From: Pseudisothecium myosuroides
Taxonomy: Eukaryota; Streptophyta; Bryopsida; Hypnales; Lembophyllaceae
Length of the DNA stretch: 64,000 nt
Direction: 5' to 3'
NCBI GenBank assembly: GCA_951799445.1
Contig: OX637289.1
Span: 3,512,501-3,576,500 of the forward strand
This document shows positions 2,796-48,641 of this stretch, piece after piece. The position numbers and the translations under genes were made by a program. Within the stretch, counting starts at the first letter, position 1; each line of letters begins with the position of its first letter. The notes below the pieces were generated by a model that was given only the letters and a program-made list of their open reading frames with translations, had not been told where the DNA came from and made no database searches.

Positions 2796-3989
2796 TCATT
2801 CCCGCGTTCCTGGACCGTTGGATTCTATGCCAAATGGCTAACCGGGAAGCTTCAAAGGAAACAAAAATCTCAATGATAACATGCACTTGGTGTATCTTAC
2901 GTACAATGGTGACATGCTGACATGATAATAACTACGTTGTCTTTTTGTGTCCGATGCAGTTAATTATAACTTCTGCACGACCTTTCAGATCCCACCGAGA
3001 GACATTGGTACGTTCAGCCTGGGTCTCACTGAGCTGAGGACAGGGCGTGTAACAGCTTATCATTGATATTTATGTAATTTAATAACTGGACTGATAAAAG
3101 ACAACTGCTACAAGACACACACAGTCCTATCAAAATTGCATGTGAACTTCTACTTAAGTGTGCTGTCTGTCTGGGTACTCTGGTCTCTGTTTTCATTTAC
3201 TACTGGAAATTCAAGTAACTGCTCATCCTCGAAAATTTGAACTCCTCGTTCCTGCCCGGAATGGGATCTCATATGGTGATCCGAAATAATCTTCGCCGCG
3301 ATAGACATTCCCATTTGGCCTCGTGATGACTTCATCAAAGACAGCCATTCAATTTGCCGAGAATTAGAGACTCATCAATCTATCAATGGAATATTAGCTG
3401 ATGACCAAAATCAACACAGAGTTAACAAACCCAATGAAACAGGAGCATGTAATTAAAATCTATTATTGGGCCAAAATCATACATCGTTAGCAACCCCCTT
3501 TGCAATTTGCAATTTCTTGGTACATCGAAAACAGTACACAAGTGATAACAGACAAGATGCACAAACTCGAAAAAGAAATGTGACAGAAAGCGCGGGCGAG
3601 AAAACGAAAACGAAAACGAAAACAAGAATGGCGCGAGAGCTAGAGGTACTAGGTTGGTTCGTAAACTTCGAGAAGGTCGAAGGTGGTAGGTCGATGGGAA
3701 ATCTACACAAGGAGGACATCTCAATTCTCCGCCCGGACGACTACGTCCCGCAACCTCTTCGAGACGCATGCAGCTACCGGTGGATCACCGTCGCCGTTAC
3801 CGCGGCTCGGTCATCCACCGGTAGCCGCCTGCGTCGCAGAGGTTACGTAGATCGTAATCGCGCCAATGCAACGAAATTGACGATGTTCCCCTGTGCGAAT
3901 CGCAGTTGGCGATCGAGAGGTCCAGACGGCTCAAATAGAGCAGCGAAAAATTCAGGAAGAATCGTAATGGCGACGACTCAGCCAGTCGT
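2796..3989. other. Gene-island flank, no gene recognised
   Basis: Composition becomes GC-richer from about 3.6 kb toward the ureF relic. A short perfect microsatellite of GAAAAC units sits at about 3598-3626. An inverted pair, CTACCGGTGGATCACCG near 3774 and CATCCACCGGTAG near 3812, lies in the GC-rich part. Several overlapping open frames occur on both strands, but none shows a recognisable domain. Confidence 0.4.
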
Positions 3990-4880
3990 GTATACGACTC
4001 ACCTAATTCACCAGTGGCAACCTTCTCACAGTTAGCCTTCTGTGTGGAGATCGCCTTTGCAGTCTCTGAGGTTGGCGAGCAGTTGCATCGATGGCGACCG
4101 AGAATGTGGACATGGAAGGAGTGGTCGTCTCCTGCACCAAGCCGAAAGTGGGATTTTGAGGGTGGACGACATGGCAGCTGATCGATTCCATCCTCCCCAC
4201 GGGCGGATTCGGGCACTCGTATGGCTTAGAGGCCGCGTTTCAAGCAGGATTAGTCTACCGCGCTGGAGCGATTCGCCGTCACCACGGTAGAGAATGCGGG
4301 CACGCTGCTGCTGCCTTTCGTGTTTGTAATTCGCCTCGAGCCAAGCGACGACTTTGGAAGGTTGGTTCGCATTGAATTGTGCTCTGCACGCCTGTCCGAT
4401 CCTGTCCAACGGAGTGGCGCACGTTGGCGTACGTGGGGCAGGGGAAGGAGCTTAGTATAGTGTCCTGGCGGTTAGTGGATTCAGGGAGATCGCCGCCGGT
4501 TTCTGGTTTCTGGGTATTGAACTTCGATCGTCACTGCGCAGCGCTGCATTTGCACCTCGCGTTCAGTGGCGCGGCGTGCTGTTCGCGGCCACTGGGTTGA
4601 CCCTCGTCGGCCCACGGAGGCTGCGCTGCAGCAGCGCCGCCATACCCAGTTCGCGGACTGCGTCATGGGGAATTACGCCGATCGGAGTGCTCACGAGGCG
4701 TCTCAGCTCGAGCTCCTTGTCGTTACTGCCCCAAATTACAGGCTCACCTTACTTTCCCGTCTCTTCGATCGGCTCGTATCCTATTTCCTGGACATATTAG
4801 CCCCAAATCAGAGCAAGGCCCGCACTAGTCGTCCCAGATCTGCCTCAGGATTCCCCCCTGTCAGAGCTGAGTAATCCGTT
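3990..4880 (+). pseudogene. ureF: Broken urease accessory protein UreF gene, copy 1
   Basis: UreF is part of the UreD-UreF-UreG complex that helps load nickel into urease in the cytosol. The frame starting at TGG 4172 reads WQLIDSILPTGGF, then HSYGLEAAFQAGLVY, the hallmark N-terminal UreF segment. Compared with the second copy at 35.3-36.2 kb, 8 bases are missing right after this, near 4259. The family sequence resumes in another frame (from 4263: LERFAVTTVENAG then TLLLPFV). A later fragment near 4591 reads TGLTLVGPRRL, matching the conserved C-terminal NLVGP region. Other blocks are scrambled across frames. No start codon or continuous frame was found, so this is a relic. GC content is well above that of the surroundings. 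The family identification is firm; the outer limits are approximate. Confidence 0.8.
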
Positions 4881-5446
4881 TCAAATGCTCCTCTTCTGCA
4901 ATTGATGGATCCAACGAATGGGGAGTGTCTTCTTCTGATTACACGGTAGCCACCAAGTGAAATTGCCGTTTTGCCGAAAGTGTAAACTTGTTAAACTGAG
5001 GCAGGAAAACTATTCTTGAAAATTGCCAAACCTTAGCCAGATGACTATGTTCAAAACTTTTATTACCACCGATGATCAAATATGGAAATTTTAAATAAAT
5101 ATTTGGAATCAGTGACTCCCAATGTGGTGGGGAAGATGGAGTACAAATTAACCTCTACAAAATAGGAAGCAATGAGTGGGTCAAAACCAAAATTCCATGA
5201 AACAGGCGCAAAGGGGAAGGGTGGAAATGGACAACATCGTTAAATTGGCACGATTCAGGGCGCCAAAAATTGTGATTCATCTGCACAAAGCTCTAAAGCC
5301 TAGGACTAGTATAGATTTCAAAATGCACGATCTGAACGTAAACGTGCCAAGTTTGTGAAAATATGCCAATTTAACGAAATTCACGTTCAGGAAATGAACG
5401 GGAAAATATGGCGTATGGAATACCGCCATTTTAACGAAATTTCCCA
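4881..5446. other. 3' flank shared by both ureF copies, then unassigned
   Basis: From about 4875 to 4975 the sequence matches 36220-36330 downstream of the second ureF relic (shared stretch AATCCGTTTCAAATGCTCCT), so the duplication extends past the coding part. From about 5050 to 5446 I see nothing recognisable. Confidence 0.5.
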
Positions 5447-8060
5447 TGTCATTACTCCCTGGCGGACAGACGGAGACTCAGCAACACAATTCCTTGCCAA
5501 ATCCACAAACAGAGGAACCATACAAGGGAACGAGAAGCAGAATGGATTAGCAGAATTACAGTTGTGGGGTCGGTTTCTTTAGGCATTGGAAAAATGACAC
5601 AATCTTTTTCCTCGGCACTCTCGACCAGGAAGTCCTGGCCATTCGTATCCGAATTACAGTCTTCTTTTCATACAAGGAATATATCACGTACTTAATTCTC
5701 CTCTGAAAACAAACATTGGACTCAGGCGGCCTTACTTCTCTTCAATCCTGCTTACCGTTGCACCGATATCCCTGCCCCACCTCACTCGCACTAAGCTCTA
5801 TTAAAGTCAGGCGAACCAGCCTTGGGCGTAAGCACTTACTCGCACCAGTATACAACTCTAACAAAAACCTAATGGTCAGGCTTCAGCTGGCAACCTTGGG
5901 GAACAACTATTGACAGTAACACTAGCAACCAAAAGAATGACCTAGACGGATACTTGCGGTGCGACTCCCATATTATAAGGGCGGAGACCGTCCATAATCA
6001 AGTCTCGTTTTGAATTGCGCATGAGGTGTAAACGTGCCTCATGCTCTATAATAGGTTATGAACAAGATACGATGCATTTCAAACCTGGTTTCAATCCCTT
6101 TTCCGTTCCCGGGGTGGCGACTTGCTTGGAATAGTGGAACAGAAAAGAGCAGGTCAGCAAATCGCCAATTTCGTTAATTTGGCATGGTCCCGGTCCTAAG
6201 TTTGTGGCATTCATCATTCGACTCCAAGCTCTAGAGACTAGACCTCCTTTAAGATTTAAGTTTCAGGCCGTGCACCCTAAAGAATGCAAAGTCATGGACT
6301 TCCGCCATCATAACCAAATTAACGTCCAACGACTAATCAACATGATTATCCGACCTGGAACTCAAGCTCTTGGAATGCTCGTGGTGCAAAATAACCGCTT
6401 CAACATATCCGGAAGCAATGGAGTAAGTAACGTCGTATTTCTCACAGAGACGCGCAACAATCGGTTGCAGTTGCGGAAGGTGACAGTGATTCACCGTAGG
6501 AAACAAATGGTGAATAACTTGATAATTCAAGCCCCCACTAAACAGATGGGTCCACTTGCTGCCCACCCCGAAGTCCTGCGCCGTGATCACCTGGTGCTTG
6601 TACCAATCCGAGTCTTCAATGTGCGTTGTATGTGGAAGCAGATGGTTGATCTGCGTGTTCATCATAAAAAGAACGGAAAATATTGCATACGGTAGGACGG
6701 CGAAGGCTAAGCTCTTGCTGGAAGACTCCAGGCAAAGGAAAGGCCACGCGTGAATGACGACAATCGTCACGAGGCGTCCGAGGATGTGCACAATCCGACG
6801 GAGGCCTGAAATGTCCATCATGGGCACAACATCGTTGTACAAACTGCTCTGGAGCATCCAGAGATCCGTCGTGGTGGCATTACCGATCGGCAAAGCCACG
6901 CTCCACCGAAGCAGCGTGTAAACCCAGAAGCTTTGCAACCGGTGCAGGGGTGACCATTTCACGTCGCGATGCTCCCGCTTCATCCAGTCATGGTGGTGCA
7001 CGTCGGGGTCGCGGTCGCCGAGGTTTGCGTAGCTGTGGTGGCCGATGTTGTGTTGCTGATACCAAGTGAACGGGGAAGAAATAAACGGGAAAATGTAAGG
7101 GACGATGGCATTGATACGCCAGTTGGCGGTGAGCGCGAAATGAGTTGCGTCGTGGAAGGTATTCACCATGACGACCCAGGCCGTGAGCGGGAAAAGCACC
7201 AAAAATCGCCAGTCGCCGCCAATGAAACCCAAAAATGTGGCCACGTAGAACACGGCCATGATCGCGATCTCTGTCCAGCGGGCTGGGGTTGCTTTCGTTG
7301 CTTCACGTAGCGACACATTCCGCCGATTGGCCTCCCCTTGGAAATACTCTTTCACCTGAAATTTCAGGGCCTCTCCGAAGGCGCTCGGCCATTCAAACTC
7401 GTGCTCCGTGATGCCATGTTGCTGCTCCAGTGTCTGCAGATGCTCGCTGTCGGAAGCGTCGATTTCGTACCTGGCAAGAATGGCGTTCAAGGCCGCGCGA
7501 GACGTGAACGGGTGGTGGCTTTCGAACATCACCGTCGCGTCGCGCCCACGCGCTAGGCCGAGCGCCAGCGGCCCACCCGGGTGGTGTCTCTCGAATTCCG
7601 TCAAGTCGTACCACTTGCCATGGATTTTTGTCAAAAACTTGCTTGGTTTCCGTGCGGTGAAAAATCTCCGCGGATGTATTGTGAACTCCGACCTGCCAAC
7701 AATCCCTGGCTTCAAATACTGATTTGCTTCATGAAGTGACACAACTGCTGCCGCCTTAGTATCACCCACCGGCATTGATCCCTCCGTCGAAGAGACCGGC
7801 CTGCCGACTCCGGTCCGGTCCAGCATAGCTAACTTAACGTTAGCGTCAGTCCTCCTCAAACGCTCGTCACAATTCAACACATCAGCATAAAGCAAGCTCG
7901 AAAAAGAACGACAACAAAACTAGAAACCACACTAGAAACAGTAACTTAATCGTCTGCAAATGCGGAATGAGAGCGTGAGATTTTGGGACTCATCGCTGCT
8001 GCGGTGCCACCTAAATAAGCTTCAACAACAGTGGCTATTAAATGTACGAGATTTTATTTT
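5447..8060. repeat. Duplicated block with desaturase gene, copy 1
   Basis: This block is closely similar, in the same orientation, to 30750-33335. Similarity begins near CTCCCTGGCGGACAGAC, covers the whole 3' flank, the desaturase gene and its upstream region, and ends just past TAAGCTTCAACA near 8025-8060. Small insertions and deletions separate the copies, for example near 6095 and 7945. Confidence 0.85.
6333..7895 (-). CDS. Cytochrome b5-fusion front-end fatty acid desaturase, copy 1
   Basis: A single intronless frame of 520 codons. Front-end desaturases insert a double bond between the carboxyl end and an existing double bond of an acyl chain, usually on ER lipids, with electrons delivered by the fused cytochrome b5. 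The b5 heme motif HPGG is at residues 105-108, with candidate second ligands at H127/H128. The desaturase core has three histidine boxes: HDATH (248-252), HNIGHH (282-287) and QVIHH (459-463). The Gln in box 3 marks the front-end group. Hydrophobic segments lie at about 208-245, 262-278, 368-390 and 395-413. The second copy has a stop codon upstream of the equivalent of residue 31, so the true start may be M41 (ATG at 7773-7775, MPVGDTK). That start gives a 480-residue protein, typical of plant and moss Delta-5/Delta-6 enzymes. Regiospecificity cannot be told from sequence. All catalytic residues are present. Confidence 0.92.
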   Translation of the reverse strand: MLYADVLNCDERLRRTDANVKLAMLDRTGVGRPVSSTEGSMPVGDTKAAAVVSLHEANQYLKPGIVGRSEFTIHPRRFFTARKPSKFLTKIHGKWYDLTEFERHHPGGPLALGLARGRDATVMFESHHPFTSRAALNAILARYEIDASDSEHLQTLEQQHGITEHEFEWPSAFGEALKFQVKEYFQGEANRRNVSLREATKATPARWTEIAIMAVFYVATFLGFIGGDWRFLVLFPLTAWVVMVNTFHDATHFALTANWRINAIVPYIFPFISSPFTWYQQHNIGHHSYANLGDRDPDVHHHDWMKREHRDVKWSPLHRLQSFWVYTLLRWSVALPIGNATTTDLWMLQSSLYNDVVPMMDISGLRRIVHILGRLVTIVVIHAWPFLCLESSSKSLAFAVLPYAIFSVLFMMNTQINHLLPHTTHIEDSDWYKHQVITAQDFGVGSKWTHLFSGGLNYQVIHHLFPTVNHCHLPQLQPIVARLCEKYDVTYSIASGYVEAVILHHEHSKSLSSRSDNHVD

Positions 8061-23499: not shown

Positions 23500-24595
23500 C
23501 TTCTACTAAACAACTTATTTTTTAAAAATCAAATTTATTTAAATTTTAAAAAAATTCTAATTTCTTAGATTAGTTTCCCATTATAAAGATTTTAACTTCA
23601 AAACTTTATAGTGCAAATAAATGAAGTTAAGGGGATTCAGAGTCTAAAATCTAGTAAAGTTAGGTACAAAAATATAATTTTTCTTCACTTTGAACACTAA
23701 TATCTTACAACTTACGGGTGATTGCACGAAACACCTGTACTATTTGTTGCATTTTGCAACAATGCTCATGATATTTTCTAGAGTTTCTTAAAACTAGGAA
23801 ACCAATTTTTTTAAAATATGGCCAGCATATGTACCTTTAAGATGAAGGTAACCACCAAAGAAAATTCATTAAAAAATTCTCTAAGTAGGAGAATTAGAAA
23901 AGTGCCAAATCTCACAAAAATAGATATTTCAATGTTTTTATTAATTAAAAATAGGAAAAAAATTAAATTAAAAAAAAATGGGCCATTGTAGCAATTCTAT
24001 GGAGAAAATCATTCACCAAACAAACAAACAAAAATTTATACGTTTCGAAATGCAAGTAGAAAGAGGCTCACTTTGTGGACTTCTAAACATCATGTAACTA
24101 ATTATTTTTAGAAATCCTTTGGATAATAGCTAAAAATATACTACAAGACCATTCCTTCTAAATTTCACCTCCAAATTCGTTTTGGTTTTGGGTACTAAAT
24201 AGTACGGAGTACTAAAACCTCCAAAATTGGTAAGTGTGACATAAAATTGGGGGCTATTATTAAATAGTAAAACATTATAAATAAATTACAAAAAATTAGA
24301 CAAGGTGTATAATAGTCATAAGTACCTTGTCTATGAATTTTGAGTCATTTGGAATCAAAACGCAAAAGTTATGGCCCAAAAACTAATCAGTTCGTAATGT
24401 GTGACAGAAAATAGTACAAGTGTTTTGTGCAATCACCCTTAAGTTACATAGTCAAATATTATGAAAACTTTTGAAGCATTTTCCTACAAGTCTAATGCAA
24501 GATCCTATGATTAAATTTAAGAAAAGTGTAGTTTTGAAGTGTTTTTAGTGCAATTTAGTCATAAACCTCATCTGGATTTAGGACTCTAGTGGAGG
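23500..24595 (-). mobile_element. Decayed piggyBac-type MITE split by the G1 element
   Basis: Positions 23567-23715 and 24448-24590 match, in reverse complement, consecutive parts of the MITE at 11.2-12.1 kb (for example ATATCTTACAACTTAC on one side and ATAGTCAAATATTATG on the other). The G1 element interrupts it. The outer limits are approximate. Confidence 0.5.
23716..24438 (+). mobile_element. TIR element G1, intact reference copy
   Basis: The left terminus is GGGTGATTGCACGAAACACC. The right terminus, in reverse complement, is GGGTGATTGCACAAAACAC, with pairing continuing through TGTACTATTT. The length is 723 bp without coding capacity. The 9-bp flanks ACAACTTAC and TTAAGTTAC match at 6 of 9 positions, which could be an aged 9-bp target duplication of the Mutator type. 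Copies occur at 39248-48641 (split by a large insertion) and 55526-55672 (fragment). Confidence 0.75.
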
Positions 24596-30749: not shown

Positions 30750-33335
30750 GTCCTCAGTACTCCCTGGCGGACAGACAGAGGCTCAGCAACACAATTCCTT
30801 GCCAAATATACAAACAGAGGAACCATACAAGGAAACGAGAAGCAGAATGGATTAGAAGAATTATAGTTGCGGGGTCGGTTTCTATAAACATTGGAAAGAA
30901 TGACACAATCTTTGTCCTGTGCACTCTCGACCAGGAAGTTCATAACCGAGTTACAGTCTTCTTTTCATACAAGGAATATATCAAGTACTTAATTCTCCTC
31001 TGAATGCAAACATTTGGCTCAAAGCTGCCTTACTTCTCTTCCATCCTGCCTGCCGTTGTACCCATATCTCTGCCCCACCTCACTCGCACTAAGCTCTAAT
31101 AAAGGCAGGCGAACCAGCCTTGGCGTGAACACGTACTCTCACGAGTACACAAGTCTAACAAGTTTAAGGTTCCGTCAGGCTTGAGCTGGCAACCTTGGAT
31201 TGACAGTAACACTAGCAACCAAAAGAATGACCTTTAAACGGATACTTGCAGTGGCGACTCCCATATTATAAGTGCGGAGACCATCCATAATCAAGTCTCG
31301 TTTTTAATTGCGCATGAGGTAACTTGCCTCATGATCTATAGAATAGGTTATGAACAAGATACAATGCATTTCAAACCTGGTTTCTCCGTTCCCGGGGTGG
31401 CGACTTGCTTGAAGTAGTGGAACAGAAAAGAGCAGGTCAGCAAATCGCCAATTTCGTTAGTTGGCATGGTCCCGTTTCTAAGTTTGTGGCATTCATCATT
31501 CGGCTCCAAGCTCTAGAAAGTAAACCTGGTTTAAAAATTAAGTTTCTGGCCGAGCACCCTGAAGAATGCAAAGTCATGGACTTCCGCTATCTTAACCAAA
31601 TTGACCTCCGACTACTAATCAACATGATTATCCTACATTCCTACCTGGAACTCAACCTCTTGGAATGCTCGTGGTGCAAAATAACCGCTTCAACATATCC
31701 GGAAGTAATGGAGTAAGTGACGTCATATTTCCGGCAGAGACGCGCAACAATCGGTTGCAGTTGCGGAAGGTGACAGTGATTCACCGTAGGAAACAAATGG
31801 TGAATAACTTGATAATTCAAGCCCCCACTAAACAGATGGGTCCATTTGCTGCCCACCCCGAAGTCCTGCGCCGTGATCACCTGGTGCTTGTACCAATCCG
31901 AGTCTTCAATGTGCGTTGTATGTGGAAGCAGATGGTTGATCTGCGTGTTCATCATAAAAAGAACGGAAAATATTGCATACGGTAGGACGGCGAAGACTAA
32001 GCTCTTGCTGGAAGACTCCAGGCAAAGGAAAGGCCACGCGTGAATGACGACAATCGTTACGAGGCGCCCGAGGATGTGCACAATCCGACGGAGGCCTGAA
32101 ATGTCCATCATGGGAACAACGTCGTTGTACAAACTGCTCTGGAGCATCCAGAGATCCGCCGTCGTGGCCATACCGATCTGCACAGCCACGCTCCACCGAA
32201 GCAGCGTGTACACCCAAAAGCTTTGCAACCGGTGCAGGGGTGACCATTTGACGTCGCGATGCTCCCGCTTCATCCAGTCATGGTGGTGCACGTCGGGGTC
32301 GCGGTCACCGAGATTCGTGTAGCTGTGGTGGCCGATGTTGTGTTGGTGGTACCAAGCGAACGGGGAAGAAAAAAACGGGTAAATGTAAGGGACGATTGCA
32401 TTGATACGCCAGTTGGAGGTGAGAGCGAAATGGGCTGAGTCGTGGAACGTGTTCACTATGAGGATCCACGCCATGAGCGGGAAGAGCACCAGGAATCGCC
32501 AGTCGCCGCGAAAGAAACTTGGGAAAGTGGCGATGGAGAGACCGGCCATGATCGCGATTTCTATCCATCGGGCTGGGGTTGCTTTCGTTGCTTCACTTAG
32601 CGACACATTCCGCCGATTGGCCTCCCCTTGGAAATACTCCTTCATCTGAAATTTCAGGGCCTCCCCAAAGGGAGTCGGCCATTCGAACTTATGCTCCGGG
32701 ATGCCTTGTTGCTGCTCCAGTGTCTGCAAACGCACGCTGTCGGAAGCGACGATTTCATATTTGGCAAGAATGGCGTTCAAGACCGCGCGAGAGGTGAACG
32801 GGTGGTGACTCTCGAACATCACCGTCGCGTCGCGGCCGCGTGCTAAGCCGAGCGCCACCGGCCCACCCGGGTGGTGTCTCTCGAATTCCGTCAAGTCGTA
32901 CCACTTGCCATGGATTTTCGTCAAAAACATGCTTGGTTTCGATGCGGTGAAAAATCTCCACGGATGTGTTGTGAACTCTTGCCTGCCGAGAATCCGTGGC
33001 TTCAAATACTGATTTGCTGCATGAAGGGACACAACTGCTGCCCCCTTAGTATCACCCACCGGCATTGGTGTTTTCATCGAAGAGGCTGGCCTGCCGACTC
33101 AGGTCCGGTCCACTATAGCTAACGTTAGACGTTAGTCCTCCTCAAACACTCGTCACAATTCACACATCAGCATAGAGCAAGCTCGAAAAAGAACGACAAC
33201 AGAAATAGAAACCAAACTAGAAACAGCAATCGTCTGCAAATGCAGAATGATGTCCAGCGTGAGATTTTGGGACTCATGGCTGCTGCGGTGCCACGTAAAT
33301 AAGCTTCAACACCAGTAGCCATCAAATGCACGAGA
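30750..33335. repeat. Duplicated block with desaturase gene, copy 2
   Basis: This is the paralogue of 5447-8060 in the same orientation, including the 3' flank (CTCCCTGGCGGACAGAC near 30759), the gene and the upstream region to about TAAGCTTCAACACCAG. Divergence is uneven: the stretch corresponding to the 3' end of the gene (about 31740-32120) is nearly identical to copy 1, while the 5' half differs much more. Confidence 0.85.
31641..33077 (-). CDS. Cytochrome b5-fusion front-end fatty acid desaturase, copy 2
   Basis: A single intronless frame of 478 codons. The role is as for copy 1: introduction of a double bond near the carboxyl end of polyunsaturated acyl chains, probably in the ER, with the N-terminal b5 domain as electron donor. 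HPGG lies at residues 69-72 and the histidine boxes are HDSAH (212-216), HNIGHH (246-251) and QVIHH (423-427), all intact. The frame starts MKTPMPVGDTK. Immediately upstream an in-frame TGA replaces the GGA of copy 1, and the equivalent of an upstream ATG is ATA, so translation must start at MKTP or MPVGD. The protein ends earlier than copy 1, after LSSR. Roughly 46 of the first 300 shared residues differ from copy 1, against about six in the last 175. Whether both copies are expressed or share regiospecificity is unknown. Confidence 0.92.
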   Translation of the reverse strand: MKTPMPVGDTKGAAVVSLHAANQYLKPRILGRQEFTTHPWRFFTASKPSMFLTKIHGKWYDLTEFERHHPGGPVALGLARGRDATVMFESHHPFTSRAVLNAILAKYEIVASDSVRLQTLEQQQGIPEHKFEWPTPFGEALKFQMKEYFQGEANRRNVSLSEATKATPARWIEIAIMAGLSIATFPSFFRGDWRFLVLFPLMAWILIVNTFHDSAHFALTSNWRINAIVPYIYPFFSSPFAWYHQHNIGHHSYTNLGDRDPDVHHHDWMKREHRDVKWSPLHRLQSFWVYTLLRWSVAVQIGMATTADLWMLQSSLYNDVVPMMDISGLRRIVHILGRLVTIVVIHAWPFLCLESSSKSLVFAVLPYAIFSVLFMMNTQINHLLPHTTHIEDSDWYKHQVITAQDFGVGSKWTHLFSGGLNYQVIHHLFPTVNHCHLPQLQPIVARLCRKYDVTYSITSGYVEAVILHHEHSKRLSSR

Positions 33336-39247: not shown

Positions 39248-40395
39248 GGGTGAATGCAAAAAACACCTATACTATTTTGCGTCACATCTTGCGTGCTGAT
39301 TTGTTTTTTGGCCATAACTTTTGCGTTCTAGCTCCAAATGACTCAAAATTTATATGTAAGGTATTCGTGATTATTATACACCTTACTTAATTTTTTGTAA
39401 TTTTCAAAAATAGTTTAATGTCCAAAAATAGCCTCCAATTTTATGTCACACTTGCCAATGTGGAGGTTTCTAGTACTATTTAGTACCCAAGAAAACAAAT
39501 TTTGAGCTGAAATTTAAAAGGGATGGTCTTCCAGTTTACTTATAACTACTATCTAAAGAAATTCTAAAAATAATTAATTGTATGTGGTGTGGAAGTCTAC
39601 AAAGTGAGCTTCTTTTTGCTTGCATTTTGTAACATATAAAATATTATTTTGGAATTTTTTTTGGATAAATGACCATCTCCATAGAGTCGTTACAAATGGA
39701 TAATTTTCATTTCATGTATTTACTTTTGTTTCCTATTTTCAACTAATTTAAACATTAACCCCTAAAGGTTTTGGAAGCGGTTTTGAAGAAAGTAGTCAAA
39801 AAAAGGGTGTTTGTGGAATGTGAGGAGTGGGCCAAAAATGACCAGTTTTTTACAATTTCCAACCGTAAGATCTTGAACTTATCTTCACTATTTATCCACC
39901 TACCAATTTTGAACGGCAGATTCTTTGAAATGAGTGACATCTAAGGCTTCAAAGTGCGAATATCTTTTTTTTCAAAGTCAAAAATCCGGGCAGCTGCATT
40001 TAGACTGCTGGATTTTCCATGTATACAATTCCATTTTGATGGTTACTCCTTGGATTTGGGTTCTTCTATAAGTTAGGAACATGCCATAAAAATTTGGAAA
40101 TGATTGCACTTGCACAACATATAGGAAATGACATATTTGTACACATAGGTTTGACAAAAGTCCTGAACACTACCCTTTTTTCCAGCAATGAAAAAGTAAT
40201 TCAAATTAGTTCCAATGAAAAAACTGAATGGTGGAGTGAATTATATGTATGTGCTTCACCATATGGAATCAACCTTCCTAAAAAATTTAGAGATCTGAAA
40301 ATGTGGGAAAATAAATTAGCCCACAGTCTCCTGTGAACACTTCAGGCTTTGGGGCAGCATTCGAATGCTAGCTTCTGCTCCTCCGCCCCCTCACT

Positions 40396-40770
40396 TCACT
40401 CTGACAAATTTTCCAAATGCTTACACCCTGGGGCTGGCGTGGTGTGGCACAGAGTATCCAAAGCCAGGGACAGCCATATCCAGACTGGCGATCCGGTCTC
40501 GCGCCGAGGAATCCGAGGTTCAGGCAACCCAACAGCATCATGGCGGGGCTGCTCCTGCGCCTCAGTCGGAGAAGGCACCACGTGGTGCCGGCCGGTGTGC
40601 GGGACGCTGCAGATACCGAGCCACATGGAACTGTTGGCCCCGCCCCCAGGGAATATCCAACATGGGCCTTCAGTTCCATCTCCGATTGCAGTCCAGCCAC
40701 AAATTAGCCACAGACTGAGGAGGGTGATTGCAAACACATGAAGCAATTCCATCACAAATCCAGATTTCAA
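40396..40770 (-). CDS. Candidate secreted-protein exon within the piggyBac element
   Basis: The 124-codon minus-strand frame begins with a hydrophobic stretch (MELLHVFAITLLSLWLICGW) that has the form of a signal peptide. It is followed by a Gly-, Pro- and Cys-containing region (GPCWIFPGGG, CSVPHTGRHH). The segment is strongly GC-rich against AT-rich surroundings. Overlapping frames are also open on both strands, so coding direction is uncertain. I recognise no family. It could be a captured host exon or transposon cargo, or a chance frame in GC-rich DNA. Confidence 0.25.
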   Translation of the reverse strand: MKSGFVMELLHVFAITLLSLWLICGWTAIGDGTEGPCWIFPGGGANSSMWLGICSVPHTGRHHVVPSPTEAQEQPRHDAVGLPEPRIPRRETGSPVWIWLSLALDTLCHTTPAPGCKHLENLSE

Positions 40771-40960
40771 TACAAAACGAAATGTAATAAATAATTATTT
40801 TTGAGTGAGACCTAAGTAATATTGAATGTGAGGATTCATTCATATTATTTCAAAAGTACGGTTAGAAAAAGGGTACCCTAAAATATTGGAGTCAACAAAC
40901 TAAATATAATTGGCAATAAATAAAATGGTGAGGATTTAGGGTCTACAAAAGCTATGTCAA

Positions 40961-41932
40961 ACCCTCATGGAGGTGTAGGGTAAAAATAGAGAGGGTGAGG
41001 CAAAATACTTAGAGCCTCTCTAACAAGTCCAAATGGTGAGGAAAAAAAATATCAAAAAATTGGAAACACCTCATGGAGGTGTAGGGTAAAAATAGAGAGG
41101 GTGAGGCAAAATACTTAGAGCCTCTCTAACAAGTCCAAATGGTGAGGAAAAAAAATATCAAAAAATTGGAAACACCTCATGGAGGTGTAGGATAAAAATA
41201 GAGAGGGTGAGGCAAAATACTTAGAGCCTCTCTAACAAGTCCAAATGATGAGGAAAAAAAATATCAAAAAATTAGAAACACCTCATGGAGGTGTAGGGTA
41301 AAAATAGAGAGGGTGAGGCAAAATATTTAGAGCTTCTCTAACAAGTCCAAATGGTGAGGAAAAAAAATATCAAAAAATTGGAAACACCTCATGGAGGTGT
41401 AGGATAAAAATAGAGAGGGTGAGGCAAAATACTTAGAGCCTCTCTAACAAGTCCAAATGACGAGGAAAAAAAATATCAAAAAATTGGAAACACCTCATGG
41501 AGGTGTAGGGTAAAAATAGAGAGGGTGAGGCAAAATACTTAGAGCCTCTCTAACAAGTCCAAATGGTGAGGAAAAAAAATATCAAAAAATTGGAAACACC
41601 TCATGGAGGTGTACGGTAAAAATAGAGAGGGTGAGGCAAAATACTTAGAGCCTCTCTAACAAGTCCAAATGATGAGGAAAAAAATATCAAAAAATTGGAA
41701 ACACCTCATGGAGGTGTAGGGTAAAAATAGAGAGGGTGAGGCAAAATACTTAGAGCCTCTCTAACAAGTCCAAATGGTGAGGAAAAAAAATATCAAAATT
41801 TTGAAAACACCTCATGGAGGTGTAGGGTAAGAATAGAGAGGGTGAAGCAAAATACTTAGAGCCTCTCTAACAAGTCCAAATGGTGAGGAAAAAAAATATC
41901 AAAATTTTGAAAACACCTCATGGAGGTGTAGA
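40961..41932. repeat. 106-bp tandem array, about nine units
   Basis: CACCTCATGGAGGTG starts at 41067, 41173, 41279, 41385, 41491, 41597, 41702, 41808 and 41914, with a partial unit before. The period is 106 (once 105). Units are nearly identical. Each holds two inverted repeats: CACCTC-ATG-GAGGTG, and TAGAGAGG with CCTCTCTA about 20 bases apart. The array ends within 40 bp of the transposase 3' end. Confidence 0.95.
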
Positions 41933-41969
41933 GTTGCCCCAAGTGCTAAATCACATGGTTCAATTTATC

Positions 41970-43931
41970 TTAGGGTCTTCGGTCATGGTTTCTTGCATTT
42001 CGGGAATGCGGCCCATAATGATATTCTTCAAAACATCCTCAGTTTAGACACATGAAGCTCCGATTACATGATCGGCAATAGTAGCTACACTTTGGGTCCC
42101 CACAAATTAGGCATGGACGCCTCAAGCGACTCGAAGTTGGCATATGCGGGTGTGGATCTTCTTCTTCTTCATCCACATCCGTGCCTCGGCCATGCCAATT
42201 TTGGAGGAGAGCCTCACATAAATCGGCCTTGAATTGGAGGTGAGTAATTGGTTTCTTTCCACGGCGGCGTGGGCGCAAAGCCGATAGATAGATGATGTAC
42301 ATATTCAATATTGTTGTGTCCAATAGGAAGTAAAAGATGCAATGCCACCACTTATGTGACCTTGTCTGGCTAGAATATGAGGCTCTCAGCTGGTCCGCCA
42401 CATCCACCCCTCTCATGTGGGTGGTATATTCTAGATGTATCGGAGAGGTGGGAATTGGGTCCCTTCTTGCCCCATTCCTACGAGGAACCGTGGGTATTGG
42501 CACACATGGAAACACAATGGGCATTGCATGAGTGGAAATGAGAAGAACTGGACGTTTGTCCTTCCACAATACACATGCAATGCCACGGGATTCATGCATC
42601 CTCCACTCTAATGTACCTTGAGGTGAATTTCTCCAATTGAGAACCGCTTTTAGTTCCGTGGGTAGGCCAATACGATTTGCTCTCATAGTGCCAGTGGCAT
42701 AAATTTCCAATGCGGCCAATTCGGTAAATAACCCCACGCTAGAGAAGTAGTTGTCTGTGACAACTACATGTCCCTTTTCCTCTTGACCATTCAATAATCT
42801 CATCACTACGTTATGCGCCACATTCGCCTCCACATGAACTACTTCTGGAATTTCTTGACCTCCATTATGATTTGCACTGCAGTAGATTTCGAAATTGAAA
42901 ACATATTTAGAATTGGAGTCCGCTAAACACCAAACCTTTATGCCCCATTTCTGTGGTTTTTTAGGCATATATTGCCTAGCAGGACAATAAGAGCCTTTGT
43001 ATCATATCATCATTTCATCAATGGTAAGAAATTTTCCCAAAATCCACTCACGCTTGAAACTATCTCTAATGTCGTGTACGAGCCACCGCACTTGAACCAT
43101 CTTGTCATAACCGGGCAAATCTCTTTCTGAAACATAGGCAACTGGGTTGGTGACATGTAGACATCTTGTTATTACTTGGAACCTCACTCTAGAGAATATT
43201 TTGGAAATGCGTGGACAATGAAAGAAAGAGCCCTCTTTGCTCCGATACATCTTCATGTTCGGTTCTTTTTTCAAGCCCATATAAATGCAAGCTGCTAAAT
43301 ACGCCTTCAAGCTTGCAACTGTCAAAGGCAACCATCCCGGTCCGCCCCTTGTTTTTTCATTCTCATCCGGTGTGGTAGCATAACGATTACTCTCTACTAC
43401 AATTTTACGCAAGAGAGTATAAGGCCAAAATAGTGAAAATAGTTGCATAAAGGTGGGCATTGTACGGAAATGTCTTGTAGGCCCTCGTGCACCTAGAAAA
43501 CATTTTGGTTTGGAAAAATAGGTGAAGTGTGATTGTGACCATGTTGAATTCCGAAATCTATGTTTGACACCATCGGGATTATCTGGGTCCCCTCCATCAC
43601 TACTTGCATCCCCCTCATATGCACCCTCGCTCTCTGACGAAGTACTCAACATTGGTGCACGATGTAGCACTCTCCTCCGTTGAACCCTGCCTCCTTCGTG
43701 CTCTTGAGAAGGGTTGACATGTACCTCAGTTTGTGGCCTATGATCGCGTTGCTGTGGATGAGGTGGTGAAATATTTCCATTCTCAAAATAATCGCTCCAA
43801 TCTTCATTCATAAAGTCAGGATGTTCAGAAGGTACACCTAAAATCGCACTTTGCCTGAAATTAAAATAAATTTTTTGTTTAGAATGTGGAATTGAATATG
43901 TACATTCACAAAAGAGAAGATTGTAGATCAT
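41970..43931 (-). pseudogene. piggyBac-family DDE transposase, interrupted by stop codons
   Basis: piggyBac transposases cut and paste DNA at TTAA sites. The upstream frame (43002-43931) holds an acidic N-terminal region, then conserved core sequence ending LTIDEMMI with the first catalytic Asp (D305). One TGA (43002-43004) follows, and the same frame continues YKGSYCPARQYMPKKPQKWG. The downstream frame (42039-42968) has the second Asp in VVTDNYFSS (D72), the third in RGVDVADQL (D189, with D192), and a C-terminal Cys-rich domain (C286, C289, C294, C298, C301, C307). A second TGA (42039-42041) cuts this domain, and the same frame goes on GCFEEYHYGPHSRN to a TAA at 41970-41972. The first TGA is one C-to-T change from CGA (Arg). 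A TTTTAATTTCAG acceptor-like site (43855-43866) precedes RQSAILG, so an upstream exon is possible. No frameshifts are needed, so inactivation looks recent. Confidence 0.9.
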
Positions 43932-43984
43932 AAGCCAAAAAAGAATGTACCACTAAAAAGTTTTCCATAAAGGAACTAGGATAC

Positions 43985-44780
43985 ATTTCATGTCCTAATT
44001 CAAAAAAATTTGCTCACTACTCCAAAGTCCTCTATATATGATTGAGGAATTATTTTATGGCCCAATCCAAAAAAATTTGCTCATTACTCCAAAGTCCTCT
44101 ATATATGATTGAGGAATTATTTTATGGCCCAATTAAAAAAATTTGCTCACTACTCCAAAGTCCTCTATATATGATTGAGGAATATTTTATGGCCGAATTC
44201 CAAAAAAATTTGTTCACTACTCCAAAGTTCTCCATACATGATTGAGGAATTATTTTATGGCCCAATTCAAAAAAAAATTGTTCACTACTCCAAAGTTCTC
44301 CATACATGATTGAGGAATTATTTTATGGCCCAATTCAAAAAAAAATTGTTCACTACTCCAAAGTTCTCCATACATGATTGAGGAATTATTTTATGGCCCA
44401 ATTCTCAAAAAATTCTCACTACTCCAAAGTTCTATATGCACTAGTGAAGATTATATGGCCCACAAAAAAAAGAATTTTCACTACTCCAAAGTTTTCCATA
44501 CACTAGTGAAGATTTAGTTACATTCCTAAATCCATACATATGTACCATCAAAGTTTTCTTACACTAGAGATTGTTGAATACCCGACCAAGATTTTTTCCC
44601 CATGTACCAAAAAAGTTTTTTTACACTACAAAGTTTCAAATACCCAACCAAGAATTTTTCCTCGTATACCCAAAAAGTTTTTTTGAACTAAAGAACTTAG
44701 GATACCCGATGAAGAATTGTTCCTCATGTACCAAAGATTTTTGTAGGCACCCCATTTTTTGGGATACACTAAAAAGGTTT
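43985..44780. repeat. 67-bp tandem array, eight units, decaying to the right
   Basis: TCCAAAG marks units at 44021, 44088, 44154, 44221, 44289, 44357, 44422 and 44483 (period 65-68). Each unit contains GATTGAGGAATTATTTTATG and an A-run before TTGCTCACTAC. After 44520 weaker relatives (CAAAGTTT, ACACTA) continue to about 44780. The array lies upstream of the transposase gene. Confidence 0.92.
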
Positions 44781-45375
44781 GCATAATCTACTTTGAATAG
44801 TGGACCTACCACCCCATTTTTTCTGGGTCCCTCCTAATTTGGCATAACCTACTTTGAATAGTGGATGATGCACCCCATTTTTTTGGGCCCACCCTAATTT
44901 TGCATAATCTACTTTGAATAGTGGACCTACCACCCCATTTTTTTGGGGTCACTCCTAATTTTGCATAACCTACTTTGAATAGTGGATGATGCATCCCATT
45001 TTTTTTGGGCCCCCCCTAATTTGGCATTCCCTACTTTGAATAGTGGATGATGCATCCCATTTTTTTTGGGGCCCCCCCTAATTTGGCATACCCTACTTTG
45101 AATAGTGGATGATGCATCCCATTTTTTTTGGGTCACTCCTAATTTTGCATAACCTACTTTGAATAGTGGACCTACCACCCCATTTTTTTGGGGTCCCTCC
45201 TAATTTTGCATAACCTACTTTGAATAGTGGATGATGCATCCCATTTTTTTGGGCCCCCCCTAATTTGGCATACCCTACTTTGAATAGTGGATGATGCATC
45301 CCATTTTTTTTGGGCCCCCCCTAATTTGGCATAACCTACTTTGAATAGTGGATGATGCACCCCATTTTTTGGGGG
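44781..45375. repeat. 61-bp tandem array, ten units
   Basis: CTTTGAATAGTGGA occurs at 44791, 44852, 44912, 44973, 45034, 45096, 45157, 45218, 45278 and 45339. Each unit has CACCCCATTTTTTTGGG-like sequence, a C-run, and CTAATTTGGCATAACCTA. Long minus-strand frames across it simply read the repeat. Confidence 0.95.
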
Positions 45376-45963
45376 GGTAAACATAAACAATTTTTGGAAC
45401 AATCTTGGGAATTTCATGATGATGTCACATTTTTTGTTGGTTGCACTCCAGAGTTTTTCATGCACTATTTGCAAATTTTTATAATATACCAAAATAGATT
45501 TGTTTCACAAAATATATTTGCATACAATGTAAGAAATATTTCATCTTTTCCTACTAATTTTTTTTACTTATCAAAAGGTCTGCATACAATATCAAAACTT
45601 GTGGAGTTGGCGGTCTATAGGAATGCCTTTCCCCCTCCAAAATATCAAAATTCCCATAATTCTCCTAACCCTGAGCGCACACAGCAGTAGAAAACAGGGA
45701 GGGAGCAAAATAATGAACCCACCTCTTGAACTCCTCTACGCTGCTGCTGCCGGGCTCTGCATGCTGTCTATAGCCCCTCGGTACCTCATCTCCAGCGCAC
45801 CCCTATAGCCCGGACTGGCGCGCAGCCCGTGAACCGTTGGAGTCTCCCCCGGCGTGGCTACGTGGCTCCTCCCCGCAGCTGGGGTGGCCAGCAAAGCCTG
45901 CGCGCCAAGCAGCTTTGATTTCGGTGATTCCGAGAGGCCTAAAACGGTCTTCTCCTTGCTCGT

Positions 45964-47290
45964 TTATCTCCGGGTTGTCATCGGAGTTGTGTGGTATGTT
46001 GTCACGCCGCGGTTTTCTCCTTGTCTGCTGGCCTTCTCTGAAAAAAAAACTTCATTGTGTAGAAGCTCAGGAGGCCATTGCCAATCTTCGATTTCGTCGT
46101 CTGAATCTTCCGAATATCCTTCGCAGGACAACTCTCGTGCCGGTGCTACATCTTCGTCTTGGTTTTCTTGACTTTCCACGAGGTCGGGATTGGGCTCACC
46201 AATGCGCAGTTCGCTTCCTTCCTTTGGCGGAAGGGGTGGCACTTGCGGCAGCGAAGGGTCGGGGGTGCTGTCGTCACTATCAGCACTGTCTGCTGTCGTT
46301 GTGCTTTCGCCAGGGTCTTCAGTTCCATCTCCGTTGTTTGGGGCCCTCCTTTCTCGCTCTTGCTGCAGCCGTTCACTACGTCGGGGAGGGATATCGTCTG
46401 ACACAAGCTGAGGACCACGCAAGTACTCCAGGTAAGAAACAAAATTCTTGCATTCATATAGCAGGCCATGGAAGTCAAACCGATAATGCATGAGTAGAAT
46501 AGAGGGAGTTACCCATTTTCCCTTCTGGAATTGAGGTATGCGTGGCATTTCGTTTCAAGCTTCTTGCGGTAGATGTACTAGCCAGATCTGGCCACACTTG
46601 CTCTTTGATAAATAGCGGAATCTCAGGATAGAACTGCCACCGTTGACACCAGCCTAAGCACCTTGCAGCCTGTTTGTAAAAATGATGACGATAGTTTTCT
46701 GGTTTTGGACTTGCAGGCCACCTAGCCATTCCACGAGGGACTGGCAAGGAACGCAAATACGAGTCGTTTAGCAATGCCACGACTTTATATGCTTGAGCTG
46801 TAGATGCTCCCTCATGCGTAATCAAGAGTTCTAACAAATGATGGGCAACTGGATTCGCTTGTGAAGGAAAATCTAGGCGCAGCAAGCTCGGGGCATGCTC
46901 TTCTTGTTCACAGCAAGCGGCACTTCTATCTCGGTGAGCTACAGATTGAAGGGCTCCCGCAGCAGGCAGATTCTGCGTCGGCAGGTGGTCGTCGATGCAG
47001 AATTGAGAGTCTGGGATCTGGGAGAGGTCACCCCGACCTGACTGGTGCGTACCTCTTGTATCCCCACGGAAGCAGAATTTTCGTCCCTCCCCGCCTAGCT
47101 GCTCAACTTCTGAAGCGCTGCCGAGTATGCCGCCCACCTCCAGAGATGTCGTCCTGAGCCCCGCTTCGGCCGACCGGTGAAGAACGTTGATGCCGAGCTG
47201 CAGTGCGTCCTCCCCGAAGTTGCCTGTCGATGAATGCGCCCTGTCGTGAAACTGGGCAGTCAGCTGCTCCGCCTTCTTGCCGAATGGCAC
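45964..47290 (-). CDS. Unknown GC-rich coding-like region within the piggyBac element
   Basis: Two overlapping minus-strand frames lie upstream of the transposase, on the same strand. The first (46475-47290, 271 codons) contains HHLLELLITHEGASTAQAYK, WCQRWQFYPEIPLFIKEQVW and other plausible globular sequence. The second (45964-46548, 194 codons) starts MPRIPQFQKGKWVTPSILLM and becomes acidic and disordered (DIPPRRSERLQQERERRAP, SEDSDDEIEDWQW). The overlap near 46480-46550 suggests a frameshift or a spliced junction. GC content is far above that of the arrays beside it. I recognise no domain. It could be a second transposon gene, captured host sequence, or a relic of another element. It is not a known part of piggyBac transposases. 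Confidence 0.4.
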
Positions 47291-47893
47291 AGTCTCCTCC
47301 TACACGTTGCTGGATGCGCCCGTCGATGCTGGAACCGGCCTCCTCCTCCCCTCGGACTGCTCAATGCTCTCTTGCTCTCTCTCTAATGTGTCATGGTCTG
47401 CTATATCCAAAGTCAGGAGTGTTGCATTTGCCTCCATGCTTAAGTGTTGATAGTCTTTTGAAGAGTGTGAATGGTGGAAGGTCTAAGTAGAATTGTATCT
47501 GGCTAGTTTTGGTTCCATGAATGGAGCTGTCATTTAGACCACAATTTTTTGCGTTCTTTATTTTTTAATCAGGGTAGGATGATGTTATGAGCTCTTCATT
47601 TTTTGACGGTTCATAAGTGTTATAGGCATTGAGGGAGGTTACAAGAAACTTTATTTCAAATCTTGTACAGTGGAAAAGCATTTCATCGATTCTTGCAGAT
47701 CTTAGTGCTGTCAAGAAAATGGCGTCTATCAGGAGAGATGTAAGCTGAGATGTAAGCTATGGTCCAATTGCAGGTGTCTTGCATTCAAGGGCTGCATTTC
47801 TAGTAATATAAATTTGAATGTAAGTTTATTTGAATTTACACAGTCGTCATGAATTCGTTTAGGTAGCCGTCCTCCAAGATTCATGAAGTTCCA

Positions 47894-48226
47894 TTATGCA
47901 TAATTGGCAATTTGAAGCGTTTTGCCGTCTATTGTAGGGATGGGGTTGAAATTTGAATTATGAGTTTGCCGTTGCAAAAAATGTTGGGTGCTGAAACCAA
48001 GAGCGTTCACTGCATTGTGGCCCCTTTTGTTCTCAACTGCTGGCGCCAGGCCTTTAGCTTTCAATGTGGCCAGGAGCCCAGCAGTGGCAGTTGATGAGTC
48101 AGAGAGGGAGTTCCATTTTCCCATCATCGAGGACCCCTGCCCCCAGCTCTGCCCCTCACCATTGGGCATGTTCACAAATTTTCTGTCCCAGTGTAAATGG
48201 ACCTGCCCGTGCTGCCCTGCGAGCAT
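47894..48226 (-). CDS. Weak unknown frame, GC-rich, within the piggyBac element
   Basis: A 110-codon minus-strand frame from MLAGQHGQVHLHWDRKFVNM through GLAPAVENKRGHN. A plus-strand frame overlaps the same bases, so direction and coding status are unclear. There is no recognisable domain. It sits between the larger unknown region and the right transposon end. Confidence 0.2.
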   Translation of the reverse strand: MLAGQHGQVHLHWDRKFVNMPNGEGQSWGQGSSMMGKWNSLSDSSTATAGLLATLKAKGLAPAVENKRGHNAVNALGFSTQHFLQRQTHNSNFNPIPTIDGKTLQIANYA

Positions 48227-48641
48227 TCAAAACCACATAATCCTTAATAACTTTTTTTCCTAAAATGAAAATGATTTGAAAATAATTGCTCCTCAAAGGT
48301 ACTCCTCGGGAGCCCATTCTTTAAAAATTTCATTTCCAAATTCCTATAATTCTTCAAGTGGTGGCCTGACCAAAAACGCTATGTTCTCAAAAAAGCCAGT
48401 TTGGTCCTTCAGGGGTTAAGATATCCATTTTCTTGAGATTTGGCACTTTTCTAGTTCTTTTGCTTAGAGAATTTTTCTATGCATTTCCTTTGGTGGTTAC
48501 ATTCATCTTAAAGGTGTATACACTAGCCATAATTTTTTTATTTTTTAAAATTTATTTTTCTAATTTTATAGTGTCCCAGAGAAAAAATCATGAGTACTGT
48601 AAAAACACAACAAAATCGGTAGGTGTTTCTTGCATTCACCC

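Follow-up and report, generated by a model that had tools for sequence, protein, structure and literature searches.

piggyBac transposases bind the ends of their elements, cut through hairpins and paste the elements scarlessly into TTAA. According to a beetle study (PMC12732532), intact beetle piggyBac elements are 2,074–3,465 bp long and carry a single ORF of ~500–725 aa; the same study notes that they occasionally occur in plant genomes, with red algae named. A survey that includes land plants tabulates piggyBac among the superfamilies present in every taxonomic group (PMC4438587), and piggyBac has been annotated in a fern (PMC6890710). As land plants are thus already on record, a moss host is no first for piggyBac. 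The word piggyBac occurs 0 times in a Physcomitrium expression study (PMC7466625), and among the open-access papers listed none dealt with a piggyBac having two ORFs or coming from a moss.

The window (the whole stretch of DNA analyzed, 64,000 nt, on contig C3) very probably holds an inactivated member of a lineage of large piggyBac elements with two genes, which has diversified within a moss genome. The sequence shows a TTAA insertion of one two-ended element with a transposase bearing the three Asp motifs (ORF2) and, upstream of it, a conserved ORF1, within which an ORF2 start codon lies in another frame. A sequence-only reading had proposed a single large piggyBac element in a plant-type host, spanning 8.66 kb from TTAA to TTAA (39755–48419), whose flanks are the two halves of another element (G2) with an uninterrupted copy, G1. 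TTAA was confirmed at both edges (Table 1), and the short terminal inverted repeats (TIRs) start with CCC, as is typical of piggyBac, their outer 10 bp being identical at 9/10 positions. Alignment of both flanks with the G1 region, which that reading had suggested, bore out the target: the rejoined flanks matched G1 (itself bearing 37-bp inverted repeats of 92% identity) in one alignment, 503/639 columns (79%), that runs continuously across the insertion point. There, G2 reads TTAA and G1 TTGA/TCAA, and rejoining leaves a single TTAA, as in piggyBac. The host is a moss, judging by the relatives of a desaturase gene at 31641–33098 (top match 79%; Ceratodon 72% and 71%, Physcomitrium 69%, then liverworts), consistent with the plant-type host proposed. 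The window contains two similar cytochrome-b5 fatty acid desaturase open frames ~25 kb apart, at 6333–7919 and 31641–33098 (−).

Table 1. Coordinates of the element, its predicted genes and its target site in the window.
Feature	Position	Strand	Remark
G1, uninterrupted relative of the target	23709–24445	.	
G2, left half (interrupted target element)	39248–39754	+	
Left TTAA target-site copy	39755–39758	.	
Whole piggyBac element	39759–48415	−	genes on minus strand; based on 24 end pairs in the genome
Left terminal inverted repeat	39759–39768	+	CCCCTAAAGG; similar in other left-end loci
106-bp tandem array	40959–41931	.	9.2 copies; downstream of transposase
ORF2 exon 3, transposase core	41970–43854	−	stop 41972–41970 shared with L072
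Tandem arrays, 68-, 62- and 61-bp units	43985–45375	.	within putative intron 2
ORF2 exon 2, acidic N-terminal region	45725–46407	−	end predicted from L072
ORF2 intron 1 (putative)	46408–46512	−	105 bp, phase 0; phases match L069–L072
ORF1, accessory protein	46478–47437	−	start 47437 predicted from sibling L072
ORF2 exon 1	46513–46548	−	ATG at 46548 within ORF1 end, +1 frame; MPRIPQFQKGKW, then GT donor
ORF1 conserved five-helix domain	46586–46852	−	alignment and AlphaFold model
Right terminal inverted repeat	48406–48415	−	CCCCTGAAGG; most other copies: CCCCTAAAGG
Right TTAA target-site copy	48416–48419	.	
G2, right part (aligned portion)	48420–48536	+	

The sequence-only reading had also proposed looking for copies with both ends at a similar spacing, and had named ends that never occur together in other copies as the outcome that would speak against a single element. 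Searching the genome (388 Mb, 222 contigs) with ~300 bp of each end returned at least 40 left-end and at least 40 right-end matches. Those listed formed at least 24 correctly oriented left/right pairs (window copy included) and 0 wrongly oriented ones, spaced by 7,234–22,520 bp (median 9.1 kb; 21/24 at 7–12 kb), compared with 0.06 correctly oriented pairs expected by chance and a maximum of 2 in 1000 shuffles. Because the same two ends pair 24 times genome-wide, we consider the locus one element rather than a composite, and the adverse outcome is contradicted. A strict pattern, in which the neighboring bases are fixed too, placed TTAA at the outer edge of 22/30 left-end and 17/30 right-end loci; a pattern tolerating TIR variants did so for 29/30 on either side, the exceptions being L010 on the left, whose tip is lost, and L039 on the right, which is the window copy and whose TTAA was read by eye. 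Three full copies (L069, L070, L071) have TTAA and a TIR at both ends and differ in their flanks, while in L072, the closest sibling of the window copy (96–98% identity in long blocks), the left tip is missing. The order of transposase, ORF1 and arrays is the same in each of the five full copies.

Three left ends on three chromosomes (L033, L034, L035) share an identical 30-bp outer flank, as expected if they had inserted into a repeat or if a larger unit had been duplicated. The window itself contains six further piggyBac-type ends (CCTTTAGGGGTTAA, 0–2 mismatches), at 747, 757, 9851, 11167, 58508 and 59457, of which the first two adjoin and have one TTAA in common. In total, 8 matches of this type were found vs. 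0.78 expected, and the six extra ones probably mark other or non-autonomous copies.

The DDE transposase noted earlier inside the element was recovered by a Pfam scan of 9 of the 22 stop-to-stop ORFs (≥90 codons), with PF13843 (DDE_Tnp_1_7) matching the two transposase halves (E=7.5e-21 and 3.6e-43) and no other Pfam family exceeding the cut-off in the nine ORFs. By sequence, the intact transposase frame of L072 matched piggyBat and piggyBac-type transposases of solved structure (piggyBat 9c0f, E=1.4e-24; 6x67, E=3.7e-22), and its motifs IDEMMI, TDNYF and MRGVD, which are also present in the window copy, aligned to 9c0f; we take their three Asp to be the catalytic residues. A C-terminal cysteine pattern is visible, though zf-Tnp_2 stayed below the cut-off (E=0.13, L069). 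With TTAA, TIRs, the DDE_Tnp_1_7 domain and the Asp residues all present, the element is assigned to piggyBac. Of 82 database relatives of the transposase, only two, both insect proteins, carry species names.

In the window clade, ORF2 appears to be spliced from three exons, with introns and starts predicted from the sequence. Exon phases 0 and 2 are common to L069–L072, and in L069 only does the spliced model remain uninterrupted (887 aa); L070 and L071 reach exon 3 and then stop inside it, and L072 has a stop in exon 2. Support for exon 2 as part of ORF2 comes from two of the 82 relatives, P0139 (E=4e-6) and P0174 (E=2e-4), in which a similar stretch is fused ahead of the transposase. The donor closing exon 2 was not found in the window copy, and a splice model was therefore not built there. 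That copy has a frameshift in exon 2 (near 46036–46048), a premature TGA in exon 3 shortly after the first Asp motif (43004–43002), an early stop at 42041–42039 and, in ORF1, a TAG at 47302–47300; given stops in both ORFs, we regard it as dead.

In each of the five full copies, the putative intron 2 holds one array and another lies 3′ of the transposase. Unit length varies between lineages, measuring ~61–68 bp (window, L072), 86 and ~113 bp (L070, L071) or 51/104 and 28 bp (L069) in the intron, and 106, 127 and 140 bp across three lineages at the 3′ position. In a second, 5.4-kb family, the arrays are limited to two short ones with 18-bp units, spanning 35 and 53 bp. Arrays, introns and ORF1 explain much of the size excess over the usual piggyBac; the sequence-only reading had not recognized tandem arrays, introns and a second conserved gene as parts of this excess. 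The earlier claim that both size and host are unusual holds for size, by comparison with the 2,074–3,465 bp of beetle elements, and is qualified for the host, given the earlier land-plant records of piggyBac; that a single large piggyBac element resides in a plant is supported by the other copies carrying both ends together.

In L072, ORF1 encodes ~320 aa that include a ~90–110-aa domain, for which AlphaFold predicts five helices (core confidence mostly >90). No Pfam family exceeded the cut-off, NCBIfam gave no match, PDB sequences contained no relative below E=0.2, and a structure search with the AlphaFold model returned no convincing fold match. The protein database holds 15 relatives, 13 of them on contigs <6 kb. 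Within the genome, four ORF1 queries (best 120–150 candidates each, with the matches of the three later queries hand-picked as absent from those of the first) yielded 227 match places or pieces, and scoring covered the best 116 of the 899 first-look candidates from a PF13843 search. An ORF1 match lay within 8 kb of 70 of these 116 transposases (68 of the 70 within 3.5 kb), against a random expectation of 1.1 on average and 6 at most in 500 shuffles; a single ORF1 query alone accounted for 41/116. The nearest match was upstream and on the same strand as the transposase in 70/70 cases. The remaining 46/116 scored transposases had no ORF1 match within 8 kb, which fits an absent as well as a more diverged ORF1. 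Across families, ORF1 identity is roughly 25–40%, and these comparisons point to a conserved gene upstream of the transposase that has no family match in Pfam, NCBIfam or PDB.

In 22/22 loci of the window clade (the five full copies plus 17 fetched because their ORF1 match lacked a stop), ORF2 has its ATG within ORF1, shifted to the +1 frame. As these loci are related, the kept ATG does not amount to 22 independent events. The ATG is positioned 139–142 nt past the start of the RHHFY codons, with a purine at −3 in 22/22, and opens the motif M-P-x4-[FY]-x-K-x-x-W (usually MPRxPxFxKGKW), directly followed by a GT splice donor in 20/22; in L079 and L092, the motif is broken by a stop. The ORF1 codons from which the ATG is built are AAT (15), GAT (4) and CAT (3), even though codons of the ORF1 domain end in T and in C equally often (115:117). 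More distant families likewise have a +1-frame ORF2 that begins within ORF1, as read through for L073/L094 and L095 and in part for L090 and L091. The L073/L094 and L095 ORF2 is a single frame without introns. Both L094 ORF2 (3244–6339) and L095 ORF2 share the N-terminal motif GEV-F-H-ITG--TY-V-F---LG--A-P---C, which by eye looks presumably chromo- or Tudor-like; Pfam gave at most Swi6_N at E=0.16 for L094.

Selection was assessed on a gapless alignment anchored on the RHHFY motif and comprising 19 of 25 loci (five full copies and 20 fetched stretches); excluded were L089, the distant L073, L090 and L091 and, because of their stops, L070 and L071. Only the ORF1 frame is constrained, with a pN/pS of 0.34, the two alternative frames giving 1.05 and 1.79. 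With a mean pS of 0.735, synonymous differences are near saturation on average, which makes pairs below a pS of 0.6 safer; of the 16 such pairs, 15 gave an ORF1 dN/dS of 0.09–0.36, and the W–L072 pair, with very few changes, gave 1.27. This pattern indicates purifying selection on ORF1. Where the two genes overlap, constraint falls on the ORF2 frame (pS 0.56, pN 0.17) and not on the ORF1 frame (0.21 and 0.30).

Near-identical copies retaining both ORF1 and ORF2 place the two-gene layout in recently moved elements. Two copies of the second family, an element of 5,414 bp including both TTAA with perfect 14-bp TIRs (CCCCTCAGGGCCGG), are 99.96% identical over 5,421 bp. Its ORF1 (245 aa from the first ATG) overlaps ORF2 (1,032 aa) in the +1 frame by ~390 nt and is identical or nearly so in five copies; the ORF2 frame has its full 1,056 codons in three of them and is reduced to 901 and 895 codons in the others. 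A third family comprises six copies with identical ORF1 and a 1,091-codon transposase frame, and the one copy read showed the ORF1/ORF2 layout of the second family.

By analogy with the piggyBac family, the ORF2 protein would act on the ends through binding, hairpin cutting and scarless TTAA insertion. It may be made from its own start codon, either from a transcript of its own or by ribosomes that scan past ORF1; in the window clade, its exons 1–3 would be spliced together, with an array lying within intron 2. In Harbinger, MuDR and En/Spm elements, the second protein serves as a transposition partner. From its position and the selection acting on it, ORF1 is most likely a small helical transposition partner, whose candidate targets include the element ends or arrays, the transposase and host chromatin. 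A more far-reaching interpretation, to which we give slightly less than even odds, is that a deep piggyBac lineage in this moss forms a true two-protein system: ORF1 would represent a new family needed for, or regulating, transposition, the transposase would be started in an overlapping frame inside ORF1, and a eukaryotic nuclear transposon would thereby couple two proteins on a single DNA segment. The fast-turning arrays at two fixed places in one clade would then be part of the system, perhaps as binding sites for ORF1 or the transposase.

Instead of a separate protein, ORF1 could encode the N-terminus of the transposase and be linked with ORF2 through a +1 frameshift or an unseen splice, as the overlap in the clades examined, reminiscent of frameshift-coupled genes, and a +1 frame open for 17–72 codons ahead of the ATG in 12/22 loci might suggest. 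We rate this as unlikely, however: the ORF2 ATG is kept in 22/22 loci, a +1-frame stop 2–6 codons before it in 8/22 leaves little room to enter that frame upstream, and the splice seen does not join the two frames because the ORF1 donor is in phase 1 and the exon-2 acceptor in phase 0. Slightly less credible still is ORF1 as a captured host gene fragment or passenger without a role in transposition. Its lack of a known function and the 46/116 transposases without a match would agree with such an origin, whereas its constant side and strand (70/70), its retention across families at roughly 25–40% identity, the purifying selection on it, and its open frame in families of near-identical copies speak against it.

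A composite in which a short piggyBac adjoins sequence unrelated to it, or a false join of the assembly at the arrays, is exceedingly improbable as the origin of the 8.66-kb span. Tandem arrays are where assemblies fail, and the largest of the 7.2–22.5-kb elements may hold nested insertions, but at least 24 end pairs and five full copies with the same order of parts are at odds with either.

Should the two-protein interpretation hold, it would bear on a standard genome-engineering tool whose transposition is regarded as needing one protein. With its conserved second protein and near-identical copies, this diverse lineage makes a dedicated piggyBac partner or regulator testable and puts a plant-derived piggyBac on offer, and the overlapping start codon provides a clean test case for two-protein expression by eukaryotic transposons.

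Among enlarged piggyBac-like elements, to which the moss element belongs, Teratorn of medaka is reportedly a ~180-kb fusion of piggyBac to a herpesvirus. A Teratorn-like composite was ruled out for the window element, which is 8.66 kb long and showed only PF13843 among the 9 of 22 ORFs scanned. PIF/Harbinger, MuDR and En/Spm share with the moss element a second conserved gene beside that for the transposase; these are other transposase superfamilies, and the moss ORF1 has no Pfam match over the cut-off. With the piggyBac elements of insects and mammals (piggyBac, piggyBat, beetle piggyBac), the moss element shares TTAA, short TIRs starting with CCC, DDE_Tnp_1_7 and the three Asp motifs. It departs from the single-ORF, 2–3.5-kb habit, which is usual in beetles and not defining: unlike beetle piggyBac, the moss elements measure 5.4 kb (one family) or mostly 7–12 kb (window family) and carry two ORFs, with putative introns and tandem arrays in the window clade. 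piggyBac in plants was already known, and the novelty, relative to the papers searched, lies in a second gene, ORF1, that overlaps the start of the transposase.
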